Assembly (NCBI GenBank): GCA_903881505.1
Contig: CAIRTM010000015.1
Span: 1 to 58,006 of the forward strand
From: an uncultured delta proteobacterium
Lineage (GTDB): Bacteria > Desulfobacterota > WTBG01 > CAIYCZ01 > CAIRTM01
Reading direction: 5' to 3'
Length of the DNA: 58,006 bases
Shown: positions 13,771 through 23,319 of the stretch, one piece after another
Layout: every line of letters starts with the position of its first letter
How positions within the stretch are numbered: position 1 is the stretch's first letter
Made by a program: the position numbers and the translations under genes
The notes under the pieces: model-generated
What the model was told of the DNA's origin: nothing
Seen by the model: the letters and a program-made list of their open reading frames with translations, nothing else
The model's database searches: none

Positions 13771-15030
13771 CTATCGACGCGGGGCATGAACGGTGCGGAC
13801 GGTCAGCGAGCCGCCCGCTCCCACAATCAGGGCGGCTGCGCCTGCAATTACAAACGCGACGGAAAAAGACTGTGTCCCGTCCGCGAGCGCTCCGGCGCAG
13901 TACGGTCCAAGCGCCTGTCCGATGCCGAATATAATCGTCATAAGGCCGAGCGCGGCCGGTGCCAGCCGGGATCCGAAGGTATCGCCTGCTATCGCGGCCA
14001 TGAGCGCCGGAATACTCCAGGCGGTCAGCGCAAAAAGCAGGGCGGAAACATACAGTGCGGCAGGCGAGAGGCTTATACCGAACAACGCGAAAGAGGCGGC
14101 CTGCAGCACGAATACGCATACCAGCGCAATCCTGCGGCCGAAGCGGTCTGAAAGGCTTCCCCAGACAAGCCCGCTCGGGAGCGATACGATGCCGACCTGC
14201 ATCCACAGCAGCCCGGCGGCAGCCGGAGTGAAAGCGGCTTGCCTCACAAGGTGCGCGATAAAAAACGTTGAGTAGATGATGTAGGAAAACCCGAATGCGC
14301 AGTATATCATGGCCAGATGCCACAGCAGGCCCGACCTGTAAATGCCGCTCCAGTCGAGGCCCGTCGATGCCGGTTCATCCCGGTTCCGGGCCTTTTCATC
14401 CGCGCTCCCGCCAATCAGGGCATGGCCCGTTTCCTCGGGCCGGTTGCGGAGAAAAAGAGCGCACAGGCCGCAGGCAACAAGCCCCAAGCCCCCGAGCGCG
14501 TACCAGCTCAAGCGCCATCCCTCGGCCCCGCCTGCGGCAATGATCGCGGGCACAAGCGGCCCCGTCACGATCAGGGCCAGACTCGAGCCGGTCACGCCAA
14601 TGCCGGAGGCAAGCCCGCGCCTGCGCGCGCCGAACCATGCCGACACCAGGCCCATGGCCGGAATATTGCCGCCCGCGCCCCCGACACCTGCAAGGAAACG
14701 CCCTGCGCAGGCAGCCCCGAACCCAGGAACAAGCCCGGTCAGCAGCATGCCGAGGCTCACGATAAGGAGCGACACGGAAATGACCACGCGCGGCCCGAAC
14801 CGGGCCGCAAGCAGTCCGGCAGGCACAACGGCCAGCAGGTAACCGAAGAGGTTGAGCGTCTGCAGCTGGCCGGTCTGCGTGTTTGAAAGCCCAAGACCCT
14901 GCTGCATGGCGGGCAGGATGCTCGTGTAGCCGAACCGGGCGAGCCCCAGCGCGCTGAACACCGCGAGCACGACCAGCGCCAGGACAACGATGCCGTAGTG
15001 CAGGCCGGAAACTCCCTTTTCCTGGTCCAT
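13771..15030 (-). CDS. MFS transporter (YbfB/YjiJ-like)
   Basis: A 419-residue major facilitator protein of the inner membrane with twelve predicted helices. The loop 2–3 motif appears as AARFGPRVV; loop 8–9 repeats it as GSLSDRFGRRIALV. The opening LALVVLAVFSALGLARFGYT, then SILPAMQQGLGLSNTQTG, is characteristic of the YbfB/YjiJ and related groups. The substrate is unknown. I start at MDQEKGVSG; the longer frame upstream is Arg/Cys-rich and does not look like protein. The Shine–Dalgarno sequence is poor. It is the last of several minus-strand genes. Confidence 0.85.
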   Translation of the reverse strand: MDQEKGVSGLHYGIVVLALVVLAVFSALGLARFGYTSILPAMQQGLGLSNTQTGQLQTLNLFGYLLAVVPAGLLAARFGPRVVISVSLLIVSLGMLLTGLVPGFGAACAGRFLAGVGGAGGNIPAMGLVSAWFGARRRGLASGIGVTGSSLALIVTGPLVPAIIAAGGAEGWRLSWYALGGLGLVACGLCALFLRNRPEETGHALIGGSADEKARNRDEPASTGLDWSGIYRSGLLWHLAMIYCAFGFSYIIYSTFFIAHLVRQAAFTPAAAGLLWMQVGIVSLPSGLVWGSLSDRFGRRIALVCVFVLQAASFALFGISLSPAALYVSALLFALTAWSIPALMAAIAGDTFGSRLAPAALGLMTIIFGIGQALGPYCAGALADGTQSFSVAFVIAGAAALIVGAGGSLTVRTVHAPRR

Positions 15031-15088
15031 AAAAATCCGTTGCGGGGGTAAGGCCCTATGCTGCAGGCAGCGTGGACGATGCCTCTTT

Positions 15089-15466
15089 CTAGGGTTTTCT
15101 TCGCAGGGCCTCAAGGTTTTTGCGGGCCTCAAGATCGTCCAACGGACCCATTTCGAGCACACCGGACAGGAACTCAAAGCCCCGCTGCAGCCGCGGGCAG
15201 ACATACTCGCCGCATTCCGCACAGGTCGCAATGTGTTTTTCAGCGCAGCAGGTGCGGATGCCGCAGACGGCGCAGTATTCAAGATGTTTGCCGGCAGTCT
15301 GCTGGCAGCCGTCGCAGTTTATGTAATCCGCTTCAACCGGCACGCCGTGCTGGCGCGACCAGCGCGCCGCTGTGCTGCGGCGCATAGCATCATTATTTGT
15401 GCGGCTTGCAATGTAGGCGTCACAGGCCGCACAGTCAACCCCGCAACAGGCGATCTTTTTTGCCAT
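15089..15466 (-). CDS. DUF3795 family cysteine-rich protein
   Basis: A 125-residue cytoplasmic protein with many paired cysteines: CCGVDCAACDAY at the N-terminus, NCDGCQ, EYCAVCGIRTCC and CAECGEYVCPRL. This spacing is that of DUF3795 proteins, which are probably zinc binding and are common in anaerobes; function is unknown. The C-terminal helix (LDDLEARKNLEALRR) is also typical. It lies 58 bases upstream of the MFS gene on the same strand, so they may be cotranscribed. Confidence 0.88.
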   Translation of the reverse strand: MAKKIACCGVDCAACDAYIASRTNNDAMRRSTAARWSRQHGVPVEADYINCDGCQQTAGKHLEYCAVCGIRTCCAEKHIATCAECGEYVCPRLQRGFEFLSGVLEMGPLDDLEARKNLEALRRKP

Positions 15467-16444: not shown

Positions 16445-17218
16445 TCATCTGGGGGCCCGCGGCTCCCATATCTGCTTGCGGTGCAGGCCCCGGCGGATAA
16501 AATCGCCGCTGGTGATGACGATACGCTCGGGTATCACCTTTGTGATCAGCTGGTTTTTGCGGATGTTGGCCATCATCGCCTCGCGGGTCATTTTCTGCTT
16601 CATGGCCTCGGGCATATGGTTCATCGCTGTTTCAAGGCACAGGTCCGCGGCTTCGTCAAAGCCGGGATCGCCGTCCTTGAGCTGCACGGCCCTGCCCCTG
16701 ATCTGCACGCCTGTCGGGTCGGTAAAGTACATCATGTCGCTGCGCTGGCGTACATACACAAGCGATACGCGGGGGTTTGCCGCTATATGAAAAAGTTTCT
16801 CCGTCTGCTTTTCGGATGAGGCGTAGAGCGTAAGTGTTTCGGGGTCAAGGATGAACTCGGCGCAGGTCGCCAGCGGCTCGTCGTTGAACGATGTCGCCAG
16901 GGCGTACATCTCGCGGTAGTCGCCTGAGCCCTTGAGCGTTTCGAGGATCGCTTTTTTTATTTCATCCTGCGGCAACCGCCCCTTGGCGCTTTTCTTCAGC
17001 GACATCGTGGCCGACGTGTAGGCATCGACGCCGTCCCAGCCGTGGCAGTCCGCGCACTTCATGCCCTCATCATAGGGCATGTGAAACGGCGACTTCTGCG
17101 TCGGCTTGACGTAGATGTAGGCGGGCCCGCCGTCCTGCCAGCCGTCATATCCGGCACAGCAGCTGGTCCAGCAGAAAAACAGGCTGACGCCGCACGCGAT
17201 CCAAGGCCATCGTCTCAT
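16445..17218 (-). CDS. Exported CxxCH heme-motif protein fused to FMN-binding split barrel
   Basis: The 257 residues start with a signal sequence (WIACGVSLFFCWTSC; a lipoprotein-type Cys is possible), followed by a single c-type heme motif CADCH at 55–59. From about 100 the chain reads as a pyridoxamine 5'-phosphate oxidase-type split barrel: ATCAEFILDPETLTLYASS, EKLFHIAANPRVSLVYV, and VQIRGRAVQLKDGDPGFDEA. Such barrels bind FMN, sometimes F420 or heme. An exported heme-plus-flavin protein suggests electron transfer in the periplasm, with unknown substrate. It depends on cytochrome c maturation, present at 29.8–32.1 kb. Confidence 0.82.
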   Translation of the reverse strand: MRRWPWIACGVSLFFCWTSCCAGYDGWQDGGPAYIYVKPTQKSPFHMPYDEGMKCADCHGWDGVDAYTSATMSLKKSAKGRLPQDEIKKAILETLKGSGDYREMYALATSFNDEPLATCAEFILDPETLTLYASSEKQTEKLFHIAANPRVSLVYVRQRSDMMYFTDPTGVQIRGRAVQLKDGDPGFDEAADLCLETAMNHMPEAMKQKMTREAMMANIRKNQLITKVIPERIVITSGDFIRRGLHRKQIWEPRAPR

Positions 17219-17607
17219 GAGTGCATCCTTTCCGAAGGCTGCTTTTTCCGGAGCAAAGCCCGCTGACTTAACAACGGCGAGTATAAGCTCCCGGCACGTG
17301 CCTTGTCAACAAAACCATCCATAAAGCCGGACAGAACAGCATTATTGCCCGGCATATACCTGCCTGCTGCGGGGATGAGAAGAAAAAGGCCGGGGTTTGG
17401 TGCTGTTGACAGAAAAAGACCTTCGCCCGCATGAACTTTTCTTAATCGGCCTGTAAGGCTTTTGTCATATTTGTTTGCTATTTATAGAATAGATTTTATA
17501 GATTAATTAAGGAGCTTAGCAGGCCACATTAAAAAAATGGATTCAGCGGATTATGTTTGTATGGTGTGCGTTCTGCTCAAAACGCAAGAACTGTGCTATT
17601 AAACATC
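17219..17607. other. Long AT-richer intergenic region
   Basis: This divergent region separates the heme/flavin gene from the YceI operon. It is visibly AT-richer than its surroundings from about 17430. It contains TATAGAATAGATTTTATAG and an AAGGAG at about 17510 with no convincing reading frame behind it. An ATG at 17537 opens a 21-codon frame, which I do not accept. Regulatory sequence for both genes is the likely content. Confidence 0.4.
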
Positions 17608-17706: not shown

Positions 17707-18375
17707 ATGAAAAAACACCTCCGCACAATCCTTGCCGGCATTATTGCTGTTCTTTGGGCCTGCCAGCCCGCCTTCTCTGCGGCTGCAGACGCTCAACAGC
17801 ATACGTTTCCCGCGCCCGGGAAATGGGAGTTCGGCTTCAAGCCCGGCGCCAGCTACATTTCCTATTTTTTGAAAGGCAACGTGCATGACACGCTCGGCTA
17901 CGTGCGCACGATCAAGGGCGGCGCCGCAGCCGTTATCGGCGACGAGGGAAATATGGCGAAAGCCTCCGTTCAGTTCAGCTTTTTAGCAGACGTGATGACC
18001 AGCGATGATGAAGCCCGCGATGAGCGGATGGATAAAAAATTCATGGAAATACACCTGTACCCTGAAGTCTCCTTTGGGGGCTCTTCAGCAGCCGCCGGCC
18101 TGAAGCAGCAGGCTGAACTTGCGAAGGCGGACAAAGAACACCCCGTTGCCTTTGACCTTGAGGGCAAACTGACCATCCACGGCACGACACGGCCGGTCAC
18201 CATCCCCGTTACCGTGTATCCTGAAAACGGCCTCCTGATTACCGAAGGCACAACCACCCTGCAGCTGCAGGACTATACTATCAAAAATCCGTCGCTGCTT
18301 TTTTTGCGCACGGAAAACACCGTCAAAATAGATTTTCACATCGAGCTTCAGCCCGCGGGCAGCCCGGCACCCTGA
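17707..18375 (+). CDS. YceI-family periplasmic lipid-binding protein
   Basis: YceI proteins are lipocalin-like barrels; known structures hold polyisoprenoid chains or quinones. This 222-residue protein has a clear signal peptide (MKKHLRTILAGIIAVLWACQ, cleavage near AFSAAA). The barrel region contains KFMEIHLYPEVSFGGSS, FDLEGKLTIHGTTRPVTIPV and LQLQDYTIKNPSLLFLRTEN, and the family's typical charged strands. GGGAG precedes this ATG, so the in-frame ATG at 17677 is rejected. It is the first gene of a six-gene operon with an isoprenoid enzyme, which fits a carrier role. Confidence 0.85.
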   Translation: MKKHLRTILAGIIAVLWACQPAFSAAADAQQHTFPAPGKWEFGFKPGASYISYFLKGNVHDTLGYVRTIKGGAAAVIGDEGNMAKASVQFSFLADVMTSDDEARDERMDKKFMEIHLYPEVSFGGSSAAAGLKQQAELAKADKEHPVAFDLEGKLTIHGTTRPVTIPVTVYPENGLLITEGTTTLQLQDYTIKNPSLLFLRTENTVKIDFHIELQPAGSPAP

Positions 18376-18392
18376 AAGAAGGCGGCACGACC

Positions 18393-19049
18393 ATGCATTC
18401 CGGTTCCATACCCACCAGGGGACGCACCCTCGACTATGCGGCCCCGGTTTATGACTTCTGCGAGCCCCTGCTGCTCATGGGGCGCCTGGCCTCCTATAAC
18501 CGTGCCATGATTGAGCTGCTGGGCCTTGAGCCGGGCCATCGCGTGCTTGACATCGGCTGCGGGACCGGCACCCTGACGAGGGCCATCGCCGACAGGCTGG
18601 ATCCGGCTGTTGGCGGCTGTGCGACAGGCATCGACGCCGCCGCAGCCATGATCGATGTCGCGCGCAAAAAACGCTCCTGTGCAGCCTGCCGGTTCGAAGT
18701 CGCGGCCGCCGAGCAGCTCCCCTTTGAAGACGGCTCGTTTGACGCAGCGGTCTCGAGCCTGTTTTACCACCATGTGGACCGGGACCTGAAAGAGCGCTCC
18801 CTGCGCGAGGCGTTCCGGGTGCTGCGGCCGGGCGGGCTGCTGGTGGTGGCCGACATGCACAGGCCGACCACGTTCATGGGCAGGCTCATATCGCATGCGG
18901 CGCGCTGGTTTCTGATGCAGCCCCAGATAGGAGAAAACATCGCGGGGCTGCTGCCGGAGCTGATGCTTCGGGCAGGCTTTGAACAGCCGCGCCTGCACGC
19001 CATGTTCATGGGCTATATTGCCCTGTTTTCAACACGAAAGGATCAGTGA
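18393..19049 (+). CDS. SAM-dependent methyltransferase (UbiE-like class I)
   Basis: A class I methyltransferase of 218 residues. The SAM-binding motif VLDIGCGTGTLT is at 51–62, with ATGIDAAAAMI as the acidic post-strand-2 loop, AAEQLPFEDGSFDAAVSSLF as motif II and EAFRVLRPGGLLVVADM as motif III. It resembles the UbiE/menaquinone methylase group in layout, but the substrate is not determined. It begins 17 bases after YceI and ends 6 bases before the isoprenoid enzyme gene, so a methylated prenyl product is a reasonable inference. Confidence 0.88.
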   Translation: MHSGSIPTRGRTLDYAAPVYDFCEPLLLMGRLASYNRAMIELLGLEPGHRVLDIGCGTGTLTRAIADRLDPAVGGCATGIDAAAAMIDVARKKRSCAACRFEVAAAEQLPFEDGSFDAAVSSLFYHHVDRDLKERSLREAFRVLRPGGLLVVADMHRPTTFMGRLISHAARWFLMQPQIGENIAGLLPELMLRAGFEQPRLHAMFMGYIALFSTRKDQ

Positions 19050-19055
19050 GCAGCT

Positions 19056-20102
19056 ATGAATATTTTTGACCTGATACGGCACGGAACGCGGCAGTGCGCT
19101 TCAGACGGGAGCGCTCCCGACGCTTTCGGCCTGCTTGAGCAGGAGCTGTCCGAGGCCTTGAATCTGTTCTGGGTCACCGCTCAGGAAATCCTGACCGGCA
19201 GCGGTATACGGCTGCTTGAAAAACCGGCCGGTTTTTTAAAACTGGAAAATAATTTTTTTTCAGCAATGTTCCTGTATTCCTATCACCGGGCCGGCCTGCC
19301 CCGTGTGCGGCGGGTGATGCACGCCGCCTTAAACCACTGCCTGCGTGGCATGGTGACGGGCTGTGACAATATCCTTGATGACGAGTACAAGAAAACGCTT
19401 GAAACCGACCTGCCCGAGGGCGCAGCGAGCTTTCGCTCGATCATCGATATCATGGCCTCCGACCGGGTTCTGTTCAGCATTCTCATGGCCGCCTTCGGCA
19501 GGGACGAGCTTTCCGCCAATCAGGTGCTGAAGGCAAGCACCGCCTCGCTGCATGCCCTGACCCAGAGCGGCATCCAGGAGTCAACCGAGGAGCAGGGCAT
19601 ACAGGAAATCCTGCCGCCCGCTGACGTTCTGGCCAGGGTTCATCATTATAAAACCGGCCTGCTGTTTAACTGCACCTGGGCCATACCCGAGGCTATCGGC
19701 GACGTGCGGCCCGGCGCAGCCGACGCCCTGAAGCAGGCGCTCTACCGCGTCGGCATCGGCTGCCAGATCATGGACGACATGGCCGACCTGGGCCGCGATG
19801 TGCGCGAAAAGCGCCACAATTACGTTGCCTCGCTTGTGTATCACGAAGGAGGCCTTCAGCAGTGGCAGCAGCTCAAACGTACGGCCGCGCATGAATCAGG
19901 AAGCCATGACCGGGCCGTGCTGCTGCATGAGTTCCCGCAGGCCCTGCAGGCATCTGCCCGCCTGGCCCGGAGCTATCTTGCTGAAGGCCTGGGCAGCCTG
20001 TTTGAGGACGCACACCAGGCCGCCGTTGAGCCGGCCATTTCGTTTCTGTACCGGCGCATCGGCACCGAACACTTCATGGCAGAGGCGGGCCTGTGCAACT
20101 AA
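19056..20102 (+). CDS. Class I isoprenoid biosynthesis enzyme (prenyl synthase-like)
   Basis: An all-helical, 348-residue protein with two aspartate-rich motifs in the right order for class I prenyl or terpene enzymes: CDNILDDEY at 103–111, where the usual DDxxD reads DNxxDD, and CQIMDDMADLGRD at 236–248. HYKTG at 197–201 matches the mid-protein KT. The arginine pair that follows the first motif in chain-elongating synthases is missing (KKTLETDLP instead). I therefore infer a divergent enzyme acting on a prenyl diphosphate, not a housekeeping synthase. There is no signal peptide. It is in the middle of the operon. Confidence 0.72.
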   Translation: MNIFDLIRHGTRQCASDGSAPDAFGLLEQELSEALNLFWVTAQEILTGSGIRLLEKPAGFLKLENNFFSAMFLYSYHRAGLPRVRRVMHAALNHCLRGMVTGCDNILDDEYKKTLETDLPEGAASFRSIIDIMASDRVLFSILMAAFGRDELSANQVLKASTASLHALTQSGIQESTEEQGIQEILPPADVLARVHHYKTGLLFNCTWAIPEAIGDVRPGAADALKQALYRVGIGCQIMDDMADLGRDVREKRHNYVASLVYHEGGLQQWQQLKRTAAHESGSHDRAVLLHEFPQALQASARLARSYLAEGLGSLFEDAHQAAVEPAISFLYRRIGTEHFMAEAGLCN

Positions 20103-20112
20103 AAGGCATCCC

Positions 20113-21285
20113 ATGCTGAAATCTCAGGGATTCTGGCTGAAAACCGCGGGGCTTTTTCTGCTGCGCTCGGGCCGCTCGACCGCGGCCCTGTCGCTGATGG
20201 TCGTGAGCGCTGTGGCCATGCTTGTTTTCCTTTCCGCGCTTGACGTGGGTGTCAACGACACCATGATCCGCAGCTCGACAGGACTTTTTGCCGGGCACAT
20301 TTCAGCTGCCGGACTCCCTGCAACGCTTGCGCCCGGGGTGCTTGCGGTTACAGGCGTCAAGGGAGTTGCCAGGCGCGTGCCCGCAGCAGGCATGCTGTCC
20401 GGCAACGGACAGTTTTCAAGCGTCGTGCTGTTCGGCATCGATCCGGAAGCCGAGCGCAGCACAAGCGCGTTCTGGAAAAAAACCCTTGCGGGCTCTTTCC
20501 TCTCGCCCGGGAGCAGGGGCCTGTATATCAGCCGGCAGCTTGCCGACGCTCTCCGTGCCAGCACAGGCAGCGTGCTCAGCTTCAGCGCCGGCGGCATGGC
20601 GCATGCAAAAAACTTTACGGTCGAAGGGATTTATGAAACCGGGATCGATCCGCTTGACAGGGGCATAGCGTTCTGCAGCCTCGCCGCTCATCCGGAACCT
20701 CAGCAGCCCTGGACCGCTGCCGTGTTTCTCCATGACGGCGTTGACCCCGCCGATGTCATCGCCCGCTACCGATCCGCTTTGGCTGAGGGCGAAGCGTTCA
20801 AGTCCTGGAGCGAACTCATGCCCGATTTGCGTCAGCTGATCGACCTTAACTATTTTTCCATGTCCCTTGTCATGGTGCTCGTGTTCGGGGTCGTTTCGCT
20901 GGGCATTGCCTGCGCCTTTGTCATTTTTATCATGAAGCATGTGCGCGAATACGGCATCATGAAAGCCATGGGCGTTACTCCTGCTGAAATGATGCGCCTG
21001 ATCGTCATGGAAATCATGCTCATGAACTGCGCGGCATCGCTTGCGGGCATTGCGTGCGGGGTCACAGCTGTCCTGCTGGTCGGCAGCACGGGGGGTATCG
21101 ACCTTACGGCATTTACCTCCTACAACCGCTACTTTGCCGTGTCCGGGGTGATCTATCCGCGCCTGACGCCTTTTTCGCTGTGCTCTCCGCCAGCACTGGC
21201 GCTCGCGTTCAGCCTGGCAGCGGCCCTGTGGCCGGCCGTGCTCGTTGCGCGCAAAAAAGCCGCTGATATTCTCAGGCTGGGGTGA
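20113..21285 (+). CDS. ABC transporter permease, FtsX/LolCE-MacB type
   Basis: 390 residues with one N-terminal TM helix (AALSLMVVSAVAMLVFLSAL), a large periplasmic domain (about 50–245) and three C-terminal TM helices, the FtsX/LolE layout. The cytoplasmic coupling segment MKHVREYGIMKAMGVTPAEM is the family signature. Members move lipoproteins, lipids or peptides using periplasmic shape change. AAGG lies before the ATG; the longer upstream frame overlaps the previous gene and is rejected. It ends within 4 bases of the ATPase start. Confidence 0.88.
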   Translation: MLKSQGFWLKTAGLFLLRSGRSTAALSLMVVSAVAMLVFLSALDVGVNDTMIRSSTGLFAGHISAAGLPATLAPGVLAVTGVKGVARRVPAAGMLSGNGQFSSVVLFGIDPEAERSTSAFWKKTLAGSFLSPGSRGLYISRQLADALRASTGSVLSFSAGGMAHAKNFTVEGIYETGIDPLDRGIAFCSLAAHPEPQQPWTAAVFLHDGVDPADVIARYRSALAEGEAFKSWSELMPDLRQLIDLNYFSMSLVMVLVFGVVSLGIACAFVIFIMKHVREYGIMKAMGVTPAEMMRLIVMEIMLMNCAASLAGIACGVTAVLLVGSTGGIDLTAFTSYNRYFAVSGVIYPRLTPFSLCSPPALALAFSLAAALWPAVLVARKKAADILRLG

Positions 21286-21290
21286 ACGCC

Positions 21291-21968
21291 ATGGTCGAAT
21301 GCCGCAGTGTTACGAAAACCTACCATTCCGGCCGGGGAACGCTGCAGGCACTGCGGGGGATTTCCCTTGCAATCGCGCCCGGCACCGCGGCGGCGATCGC
21401 GGGCAAGTCGGGTTCGGGCAAAACAACGCTTCTTAACTGTATGGGAGGGCTTGACTGGCCCGACAGCGGACAGGTGTTCGTCAACGGCATCGATTTGCAC
21501 ACCCTGCCGCAGCGCGGGCTCAGCCTGTTCCTGCGGCGCGACATGGGGTTTGTGTTCCAGTTCGGAAACCTGCTCTCCTATCTCACGGTGTTCGAAAACA
21601 TCGCGTTTCCCCTGAAGCTTAATAACATCCCGAAGCTCGAACTGGAGCGCCGCACGCAGGAGCTGCTCGAGCGCATCGGCCTTGCCGGTGCAGGCCCCGC
21701 GCTTGCGCACGAGCTTTCCGGCGGCGAGGTTCAGCGCGTGGCCGTGGCGCGGGCGCTTGCGCACCGCCCGAAGCTGCTGCTTGCCGATGAGCCCACCGCC
21801 AGCCTTGACAGCGCCACCGGAACAAGCCTTGTCCGGCTCATGTTCGAACTGGGCCGGGAGAGCGGCTGCACCATGGTGCTCTCGACCCATGACAGCGAGG
21901 TCATGGATCTGGCCGACCAGCGTCTGCATATCCGCGACGGGATGCTGCAGGAGCATCCGGGGCAGTAA
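21291..21968 (+). CDS. ABC transporter ATP-binding protein (LolD/MacB type)
   Basis: The nucleotide-binding partner of the upstream permease. Walker A is AGKSGSGKTTLL, the Q-loop region is MGFVFQFGNLLSYLTV, the signature is LSGGEVQRVAVARAL, and Walker B is LLLADEPTASLD, followed by the H-loop in VLSTHD. The 225 residues are normal. The ATG at 21291 is preferred; a GTG at 21282 overlaps the permease stop (GTGA) and would allow coupled translation. With LolD-type features it probably drives extraction or export of a lipophilic cargo. Confidence 0.93.
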   Translation: MVECRSVTKTYHSGRGTLQALRGISLAIAPGTAAAIAGKSGSGKTTLLNCMGGLDWPDSGQVFVNGIDLHTLPQRGLSLFLRRDMGFVFQFGNLLSYLTVFENIAFPLKLNNIPKLELERRTQELLERIGLAGAGPALAHELSGGEVQRVAVARALAHRPKLLLADEPTASLDSATGTSLVRLMFELGRESGCTMVLSTHDSEVMDLADQRLHIRDGMLQEHPGQ

Positions 21969-22717
21969 TGGGGATTGTTTTTTCACCATCAACGGCCGCT
22001 GTGCGCTTCTGCTGCGCGGCTTTTCTCGTCCTGGGCGCGGCGTGGCTCAGCGGCTGTGTTTTTGTCGGCACGCTGAGTTCCGGCCGCCCCGTGTATCCCG
22101 CAACCTGGCCCGCCCTTGATACCGCGCGCGCATGTCCAGACATTTCCGGCACGTACCGTGCCGTGAGCGAGGAGGCGGCACCGCTGGTCTATCCGCCCGG
22201 AGCGCAACCCGTGAAGGTATTTTTTCTGATCCCGTACGGAAGGCCGAAACCAGCGCCGCTTGGCCGCCGCATACTGCCCTGGCATCTCGCGGGCGCTTTT
22301 CCTTCCAGTAACAAGGAGGACTGGTGCGCCCTTACCCGGTATGCTGCCGCCCTTGAGAAAAACAATGGCGCAGGCTGGGTCAGGGTGCAGCAGACCGGCG
22401 CCGGCTTTGGTGTCAGCGCCGGCCTTGAGGACGAAACACTCTTTCACGTGATGCTCAACAACGAACCGCAGGAGCTGTGGGGGAACTATACAAGCCACGC
22501 CTTCGAATGCGGCAAAGGCGGGATAGCGGTGGTCGGCTGTTTTCCTCCACCCGGGGCTGAGAATCCCGAGGGCCTGTCCAACGCTGTCGTCAACGCTTAT
22601 TTCACGTTCTACCGCGCCGTCGATGGATCGCTGGTTGCGCTCGAAGAGGCGGTCGGCGGACTGCCGGGCGGCAACCCGGAGTTCAGCAAGTGGTGGCGCT
22701 GGCAACCGGTCAAGTAG
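21968..22717 (+). CDS. Putative outer-membrane lipoprotein of unknown function
   Basis: The start codon overlaps the ATPase stop by one base (TAATG), so it belongs to the operon. A signal peptide ends in the lipobox WLSGC (Cys at about 30). The mature part is rich in Trp, Pro and Gly (SGRPVYPATWPALDTARACP, CPDISGTY, WWRWQPVK at the end) and has Cys residues that may form disulfides. I do not recognise a family. As last gene of a YceI–methyltransferase–isoprenoid–ABC operon, it could be the outer-membrane receiver of the exported product. Confidence 0.7.
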   Translation: MGIVFSPSTAAVRFCCAAFLVLGAAWLSGCVFVGTLSSGRPVYPATWPALDTARACPDISGTYRAVSEEAAPLVYPPGAQPVKVFFLIPYGRPKPAPLGRRILPWHLAGAFPSSNKEDWCALTRYAAALEKNNGAGWVRVQQTGAGFGVSAGLEDETLFHVMLNNEPQELWGNYTSHAFECGKGGIAVVGCFPPPGAENPEGLSNAVVNAYFTFYRAVDGSLVALEEAVGGLPGGNPEFSKWWRWQPVK

Positions 22718-22773: not shown

Positions 22774-23319
22774 CTACGGCTTCACCGCATAGGCTGCGTG
22801 TTTTTCTTCAGCCGTGAAGCCGATTTTGCGTTTCGGTTTTTCCTCGGCGGCCAGCAGATGATCGAGCGTTTCGAAGACAACCTGAAAACGGTCATTGGTC
22901 TGACGTTTAAGCTCATCAAGCTCGCGCCTGAGCTCAGAACTGTTCACGCGAAGCTCCCTAAGCCGCGTAAACACCCTCATGATCATAATATTCACCTGTA
23001 TGGCCCGGGCGCTGGTAAGCACGCTCGACAGCATTGCAACACCCTCCTCGGTAAACACATATGGCACATATCGCCGCCCGCCGCGCTCATTTTTTGAGGT
23101 GCCAGTCTGGCACCTCAAAAGGGCAGCCGCTTCTTGCGTGATTTGAAACATGAAATCAGCAGGAAATCGCTCGCTGTTGCGCTTAACCGCCCTGTTCAGC
23201 TGCTTGGTTTCAACCGCATACAGCCCTGCCAAGTCGCTGTCGAGCATAACCCTATGCCCTCGGATGATATGGATTTTTTGTTCGATGTGTTCAAGCGGAA
23301 TTGGAACCTGCAGGTCCAT
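22774..23319 (-). CDS. ORF6N domain-containing protein
   Basis: ORF6N domains occur in phage antirepressor-like DNA-binding proteins and in stand-alone chromosomal genes. The domain is at residues 8–95: IRGHRVMLDSDLAGLYAVET, LNRAVKRNSERFPADFMFQI, and YVPYVFTEEGVAMLSSVL. A coiled-coil follows (VNSSELRRELDELKRQ), then a basic tail. GGAGGGG lies before the ATG. The gene is alone; there are no phage structural genes, so it may be a relic or a domesticated regulator. The target is unknown. Confidence 0.88.
   Translation of the reverse strand: MDLQVPIPLEHIEQKIHIIRGHRVMLDSDLAGLYAVETKQLNRAVKRNSERFPADFMFQITQEAAALLRCQTGTSKNERGGRRYVPYVFTEEGVAMLSSVLTSARAIQVNIMIMRVFTRLRELRVNSSELRRELDELKRQTNDRFQVVFETLDHLLAAEEKPKRKIGFTAEEKHAAYAVKP

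Follow-up and report, generated by a model that had tools for sequence, protein, structure and literature searches.

Canonical trans-isoprenyl diphosphate synthases (IDS; PF00348) have their fold, second acidic motif and KT motif in common with an enzyme encoded in the locus described here, whereas in the latter the first motif is DNxxDxExK instead of DDxxD, and both GGKxxRP and the Arg pair are missing. The trans-IDS-like prenyltransferases ComQ, PalQ and Ord1 are likewise IDS-derived proteins in which chain elongation has been lost; Ord1, which farnesylates free tryptophan, is among the best fold matches of our enzyme (PMC13290415). Unlike these prenyltransferases, the enzyme of the locus is accompanied by a Lol-type transporter, has no peptide substrate in sight, and is only 16-21% identical to Ord1. 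In gene content, the locus can be likened to the sodorifen cluster, in which an FPP C-methyltransferase is found with a terpene synthase, i.e., a methyltransferase beside an enzyme that uses a prenyl diphosphate (PMC7862628). No Lol-type transporter or haem lipoprotein is described for that cluster.

The transporter genes of the locus fall into the same fold and sequence group as the lipoprotein-releasing ABC transporters LolCDE and LolDF. In E. coli LolC the Hook is essential for the recruitment of LolA, and it is predicted to be universal among LolC and LolF proteins (PMC10865981). In contrast, the permease and ATPase of the locus remain far below the curated cut-offs, the Hook is missing, and both come consistently with an isoprenoid enzyme and a methyltransferase. 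Lipocalins of the YceI family bind isoprenoids, including ubiquinone-8, and in the BcnA-LcoA pair such a periplasmic lipocalin is encoded with a haem protein, BcnA being adjacent to cytochrome b561 (PMC9113575). Neither a synthase nor a methyltransferase nor an ABC transporter is dedicated to this pair, whereas in the cassette YceI and a di-haem lipoprotein occur in different lineages. Lipocalins of the NE1406 type (PF09410) are linked by genome context to LolD-like ATPases and have a suggested role in lipid transport (PMC2954199); the lipocalin fold and the LolD-like link are as in our locus, but the lipocalin family is not YceI and no prenyl enzyme is included.

Organization of the locus

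The window, i.e., the whole stretch of DNA analysed, comprises 58,006 nucleotides of a contig from an uncultured delta proteobacterium. Positions 17707-22717 carry six intact open reading frames, all on the forward strand. These, together with a putative promoter, are as follows:

17462..17490, +, possible sigma-70-type promoter of the operon (TTGTCA-17-TAGAAT), weak, from a consensus scan only
17707..18375, +, YceI-family lipocalin with a signal-peptide-like N-terminus (PF04264, 2.5e-19); lineage-specific addition
18393..19049, +, SAM-dependent methyltransferase, UbiE/CpaM-like (Methyltransf_25, 1.3e-24; Pfam/NCBIfam); core
19056..20102, +, isoprenoid-synthase-like enzyme (polyprenyl_synt PF00348, 3.4e-6, borderline; alignment; fold); core
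20113..21285, +, LolF/LolC/LolE-like permease without the LolA-docking Hook (FtsX/MacB_PCD; TIGR02212); core
21282..21968, +, LolD-like ABC ATPase (ABC_tran, 1.8e-31; TIGR02211); core
21968..22717, +, orphan lipoprotein of 249 aa with a lipobox-like LSGC (Cys at residue 30), of no Pfam or NCBIfam family

The first four genes are separated by gaps of 17, 6 and 10 bases, the permease and ATPase genes overlap by 4 bases (the ATPase starting with GTG), and the ATPase and lipoprotein genes share a single base (TAATG), all as described in an earlier reading of the sequence alone (hereafter, the sequence-only reading). The promoter scan returned 4 sites versus 1.8 expected. Upstream and divergent from the operon (16445-17218, reverse strand) lies a gene for a pyridoxamine-oxidase-like split-barrel protein with one CxxCH motif (CADCH) near its N-terminus, a 78% identical piece of which occupies the same place in a genome of the same genus (locus L008). 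Directly downstream, on the opposite strand (22774-23319), an ORF6N-domain protein is encoded, a member of a phage-type, DNA-binding family.

Conservation and distribution of the core cassette

The methyltransferase, the isoprenoid-synthase-like enzyme, the LolF-type permease and the LolD-type ATPase form a real and undescribed core cassette. In tblastn and HMM searches of the loci, these four middle genes kept their adjacency and order in about 15 further genomes of Deltaproteobacteria, many of them from sulfate-reducer-like bacteria; the cassette is therefore more than a chance arrangement. The enzyme, used as query against bacterial and archaeal genome contigs, retrieved 18 loci in Deltaproteobacteria MAGs and one Myxococcota MAG, and nearly all loci of sufficient length preserve the order methyltransferase-enzyme-permease-ATPase. 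One carrier (L011/L057) has no methyltransferase next door and two (L012 and L023) have no transporter nearby; frame breaks, left uncorrected, occur in several loci from draft assemblies (L008, L018). Among sampled genomes and partial contigs, to which these counts apply, a strong match (E below 1e-30) was present in 18 of 395 genomes of the window's phylum, and the spread is thus patchy. In the phylum of the Myxococcota genome, 2 of 237 genomes had a match at E 1e-8 or better.

Sequence identity across the loci is 44-79% for the permease and 55-75% for the methyltransferase, and that of the enzyme exceeds 40% throughout the first clade. The pairwise distances of the four core proteins correlate with one another (r 0.86-0.95 over 18 loci; 0 of 2000 permutations), which supports co-transfer but does not prove it, since the common descent of the hosts contributes to the correlation. 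No described counterpart of the cassette was found in the open-licence literature. The sequence-only reading, which knew of no characterized system with this gene set, is supported in that a conserved cassette links a class I prenyl enzyme of divergent sequence to a methyltransferase and to a transporter of Lol-like type. That reading had, however, taken all six genes for one unit, to be tested by their being neighbours in other genomes. Four of them are indeed kept together in the other genomes, and five (with YceI) in two relatives, but the complete set of six is confined to the genome of the window. An ancient unit of all six genes was accordingly rejected, YceI and the 249-aa lipoprotein being late, local additions. 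A mobile or plasmid origin was also considered and rejected; in the plasmid collection the sole relative, from Fusobacterium, was very distant and shared none of the neighbours.

Several loci (L016:198-2370, L017, L018 and L023) contain two-component regulator genes or their remnants near the front of the cassette, for which control by envelope or redox stress is possible. In the nearest relative, a FAD-dependent phytoene-desaturase-like oxidoreductase and an MFS transporter adjoin the cassette (L008:5581-8444); the window has an MFS homologue at 13771-15282, with no FAD oxidoreductase beside it. The oxidoreductase was not counted as an enzyme of the pathway, the best match in the window's genome being 35% identical and located on another contig.

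The isoprenoid-synthase-like enzyme

The enzyme scores 26.9 bits against PF00348 when searched alone (cut-off 27) and 28.1 bits in a whole-genome search that included neighbouring pieces. Its AlphaFold model, built with 14 sequences (pLDDT 84, pTM 0.86), has the all-helical isoprenoid-synthase fold, and the best Foldseek matches are GGPP and octaprenyl-PP synthases (E about 1e-5, TM 0.5-0.67), with Ord1 also among them. The sequence-only reading had named a closed metal-binding cavity as a test of its proposal, which the model answers only by half: the fold is as expected, but confidence is low (pLDDT below 50) in the loop that carries the first acidic motif.

Examination of the motifs shows a consistent pattern. 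The first acidic motif reads CDNILDDEYK (residues 103-112), with no Arg pair following DNILDDEYK, as the earlier reading had noticed. DNxxDxExK replaces DDxxD in all 22 of the 22 relatives aligned; it occurs without RR in every member of three clades, and also in the Fusobacterium relative. The canonical synthase of the same genome that served as reference (L076) exhibits GGKRLRP and DDVIDHADIRR in the corresponding positions. In the cassette enzymes, the IPP-binding GGKxxRP is replaced by (E/K)NFFS or its relatives, and since both this motif and the Arg pair are absent, the IPP site is lost. The KT motif is represented by KTG at residues 199-201; KT is characteristic of clade 1, and KGG or RGG of the other clades. 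The second acidic motif, QIMDDMAD (residues 237-244), has Q237, D240, D241 and D244 invariant in the family alignment. The glutamine just before this motif is not diagnostic, because the canonical synthases aligned carry it as well. From these residues we infer that the enzyme would handle a prenyl diphosphate, without elongating it by IPP. Elsewhere the genome encodes two polyprenyl synthetases of canonical type as well as a LolF of that type, so that the cassette copies are specialized; with their motifs also different, simple duplication of polyprenyl synthetase or LolCDE genes was rejected as their origin.

Divergent clades and distant relatives

A second, divergent clade (L062-L067 and L074) shows the order enzyme-methyltransferase-permease, followed directly by the ATPase in L062, L063 and L074, and a PEMT/ICMT-type membrane methyltransferase stands in front in L062, L063 and L065. 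Enzymes of a third clade (L070-L073) occur alone, behind PtsP-like and HtpG-like genes and beside a DAHP-synthase-like gene (names assigned by eye), and two genomes (G136 and G163) contain a third-clade copy as well as a second copy beside a Lol-like transporter. A relative that is more distant still, from a genome of the same family as the window, is located between an MMPL-family exporter and two multihaem cytochrome genes (L075:4347-10960). In L068 (4026-7382), the permease and ATPase follow a PAP2 lipid phosphatase and an exported protein of 213 aa, in convergent orientation to the enzyme gene. A "hypothetical protein" of Fusobacterium varium plasmid AP017969.1 (L026:8938-9846) is a distant member of the family with DNxxDxExK. 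The isoprenoid-type enzyme thus recurs beside membrane exporters, several times near c-type haem proteins.

The Lol-type transporter

The permease reaches 81.8 bits against TIGR02212, below the LolC/E cut-off of 362, compared to 385.7 for the other copy in the genome; the ATPase has LolD (TIGR02211) as its best NCBIfam model, at 211.5 bits versus a cut-off of 307.75. The best solved relatives of the permease profile are LolF (E 1e-21), LolE (1.2e-16) and LolC, in that order, and its model matches LolCDE best in Foldseek (E 5.7e-18), followed by MacB. The Hook is deleted in every cassette permease aligned, in both clades. The LolF-type protein that this genome encodes beside lysS does have a Hook, PTGMLAPSGMVPRWK. 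Because the permease lacks the element that recruits LolA, the known Lol hand-over is unlikely, and the loss may signify a different cargo or a different acceptor.

The methyltransferase and the flanking genes

In NCBIfam the methyltransferase is UbiE/CpaM-like, reaching no cut-off. Its nearest solved chain is 5gm1 (E 1.2e-16), that of TleD, an enzyme by which a terpene chain is both methylated and cyclized. Unrelated class I methyltransferases follow close behind, and since they score nearly as well, the match is a hint only.

The YceI protein is well above its family threshold (PF04264, 70.6 bits versus 23.7). It is found upstream of the core only in the window, in L008 (same genus) and in L009 (same family), so that its link to the cassette is limited to three closely related genomes. 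YceI lipocalins bind isoprenoids and the BcnA gene adjoins that of cytochrome b561, which makes YceI a reasonable candidate acceptor in the window's lineage.

The 249-aa lipoprotein, which the sequence-only reading counted as part of the unit, has no homologue in 28 related genomes and no family in Pfam or NCBIfam, and that view is not supported. In 13 other loci the gene after the ATPase codes instead for a conserved lipoprotein, about 80 aa long, in which two CxxCH (c-haem) motifs are accompanied by further invariant histidines; it scores slightly below the Paired_CXXCH_1 cut-off and has only weak cytochrome matches among solved structures. No homologue of this di-haem lipoprotein occurs in the window, the gene being missing from the window's own lineage, and the orphan stands in its position, the two proteins being unrelated. 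In L008, L009 and L058, the transporter is likewise present without the di-haem lipoprotein.

Possible functions of the cassette

The cargo of the transporter could be lipoproteins rather than a lipid: a dedicated LolDF paralogue would direct the cassette's di-haem lipoprotein (or the orphan) to the outer membrane, and an unusual prenyl or methyl modification might come first. The affinity of permease and ATPase to LolF/LolE/LolC and LolD fits such a role, as does the lipoprotein gene behind the ATPase in the 13 loci and in the window. The Hook for hand-over to LolA is, however, absent in all members, the lipoprotein of the window is unrelated to the di-haem protein, three loci have the transporter without the latter, and a LolF already exists in the genome; we consider this explanation unlikely.

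A methylated-terpene pathway, comparable to those for sodorifen and 2-methylisoborneol, would have the methyltransferase C-methylate a prenyl diphosphate, the IDS-like enzyme cyclize it and the ABC transporter act as an efflux pump. Loss of the IPP site with retention of the acidic motifs would suit cyclization, the best solved relative of the methyltransferase, TleD, methylates a terpene chain, and in the sodorifen cluster, too, genes for a methyltransferase and a terpene synthase are neighbours (PMC7862628). Yet class I methyltransferases of many functions resemble the protein nearly as closely, volatile terpenes do not need a Lol-type extractor, and YceI and the di-haem lipoprotein are left unexplained; we regard this pathway as improbable. 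The fold match to Ord1 (PMC13290415) and the glutamine preceding the second motif recall the prenyltransferases of the ComQ, PalQ and Ord1 type, in which case tryptophan or a peptide would be prenylated, then methylated and exported. The same glutamine is found in canonical synthases, identity to Ord1 is low, and the surroundings of the core showed no conserved precursor peptide with a Trp; we view this possibility as very improbable.

The reading that we prefer, with about an even chance of being correct, is that the cassette is a dedicated make-and-export unit for a non-canonical isoprenoid. The isoprenoid-synthase-like protein would bind a preformed prenyl diphosphate via its two acidic motifs and ionize it; no IPP would be added, and the prenyl group would be transferred to another acceptor or cyclized. 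The methyltransferase would add a methyl group to the product or its precursor. A homodimer of the Hook-less LolF-type permease, powered by the LolD-like ATPase, would then draw the product out of the inner membrane, in which it resides, and hand it to a partner other than LolA, which in the window's lineage may be the YceI lipocalin. In most other carriers the di-haem lipoprotein may perhaps be the receiver, and this would suggest a redox-active product. In favour of this reading are the conserved order and matched divergence of the four core genes, the second clade with its additional membrane methyltransferase, the canonical copies elsewhere in the genome, the fold and motif pattern of the enzyme, the deleted Hook, the ligands of YceI lipocalins, and the haem proteins of the 13 loci and of L075. 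Against it stand the low-confidence loop of the first acidic motif, the PF00348 score just short of the cut-off, the narrow distribution of YceI, the absence of the di-haem gene from the window's lineage, the carriers without a neighbouring methyltransferase or transporter, and the possibility that lipoproteins are the cargo. Gene order, conservation, the fold, the altered motifs, the missing Hook and the haem motifs are observed; the reaction and its substrate, the direction and destination of export and any redox role are inferred. The sequence-only reading, according to which an isoprenoid lipid is made and moved to the outer membrane, is plausible in its general sense; the outer membrane as destination is unproven, the permease having no Hook and the known Lol hand-over being unlikely.

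More specifically, the cassette might make a so far undescribed methylated isoprenoid that serves as electron carrier or antioxidant in the periplasm or outer membrane, delivered by the Hook-less LolDF and held or recharged by YceI or the two-haem lipoprotein. We rate this extension as distinctly improbable; if true, anaerobes would possess a quinone-like lipid of the envelope that has no known precedent. Apart from lipoproteins, phospholipids and LPS, little is known of how hydrophobic molecules cross the periplasm. If the make-and-export reading is true, a Hook-less Lol-type transporter tied genetically to an isoprenoid enzyme would be direct evidence for the recruitment of such transporters to small isoprenoids. 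With its invariant DNxxDxExK, the IDS-like family offers a source of new prenyl chemistry that can be tested, and it occurs in bacteria for which electron transfer in the envelope is important.
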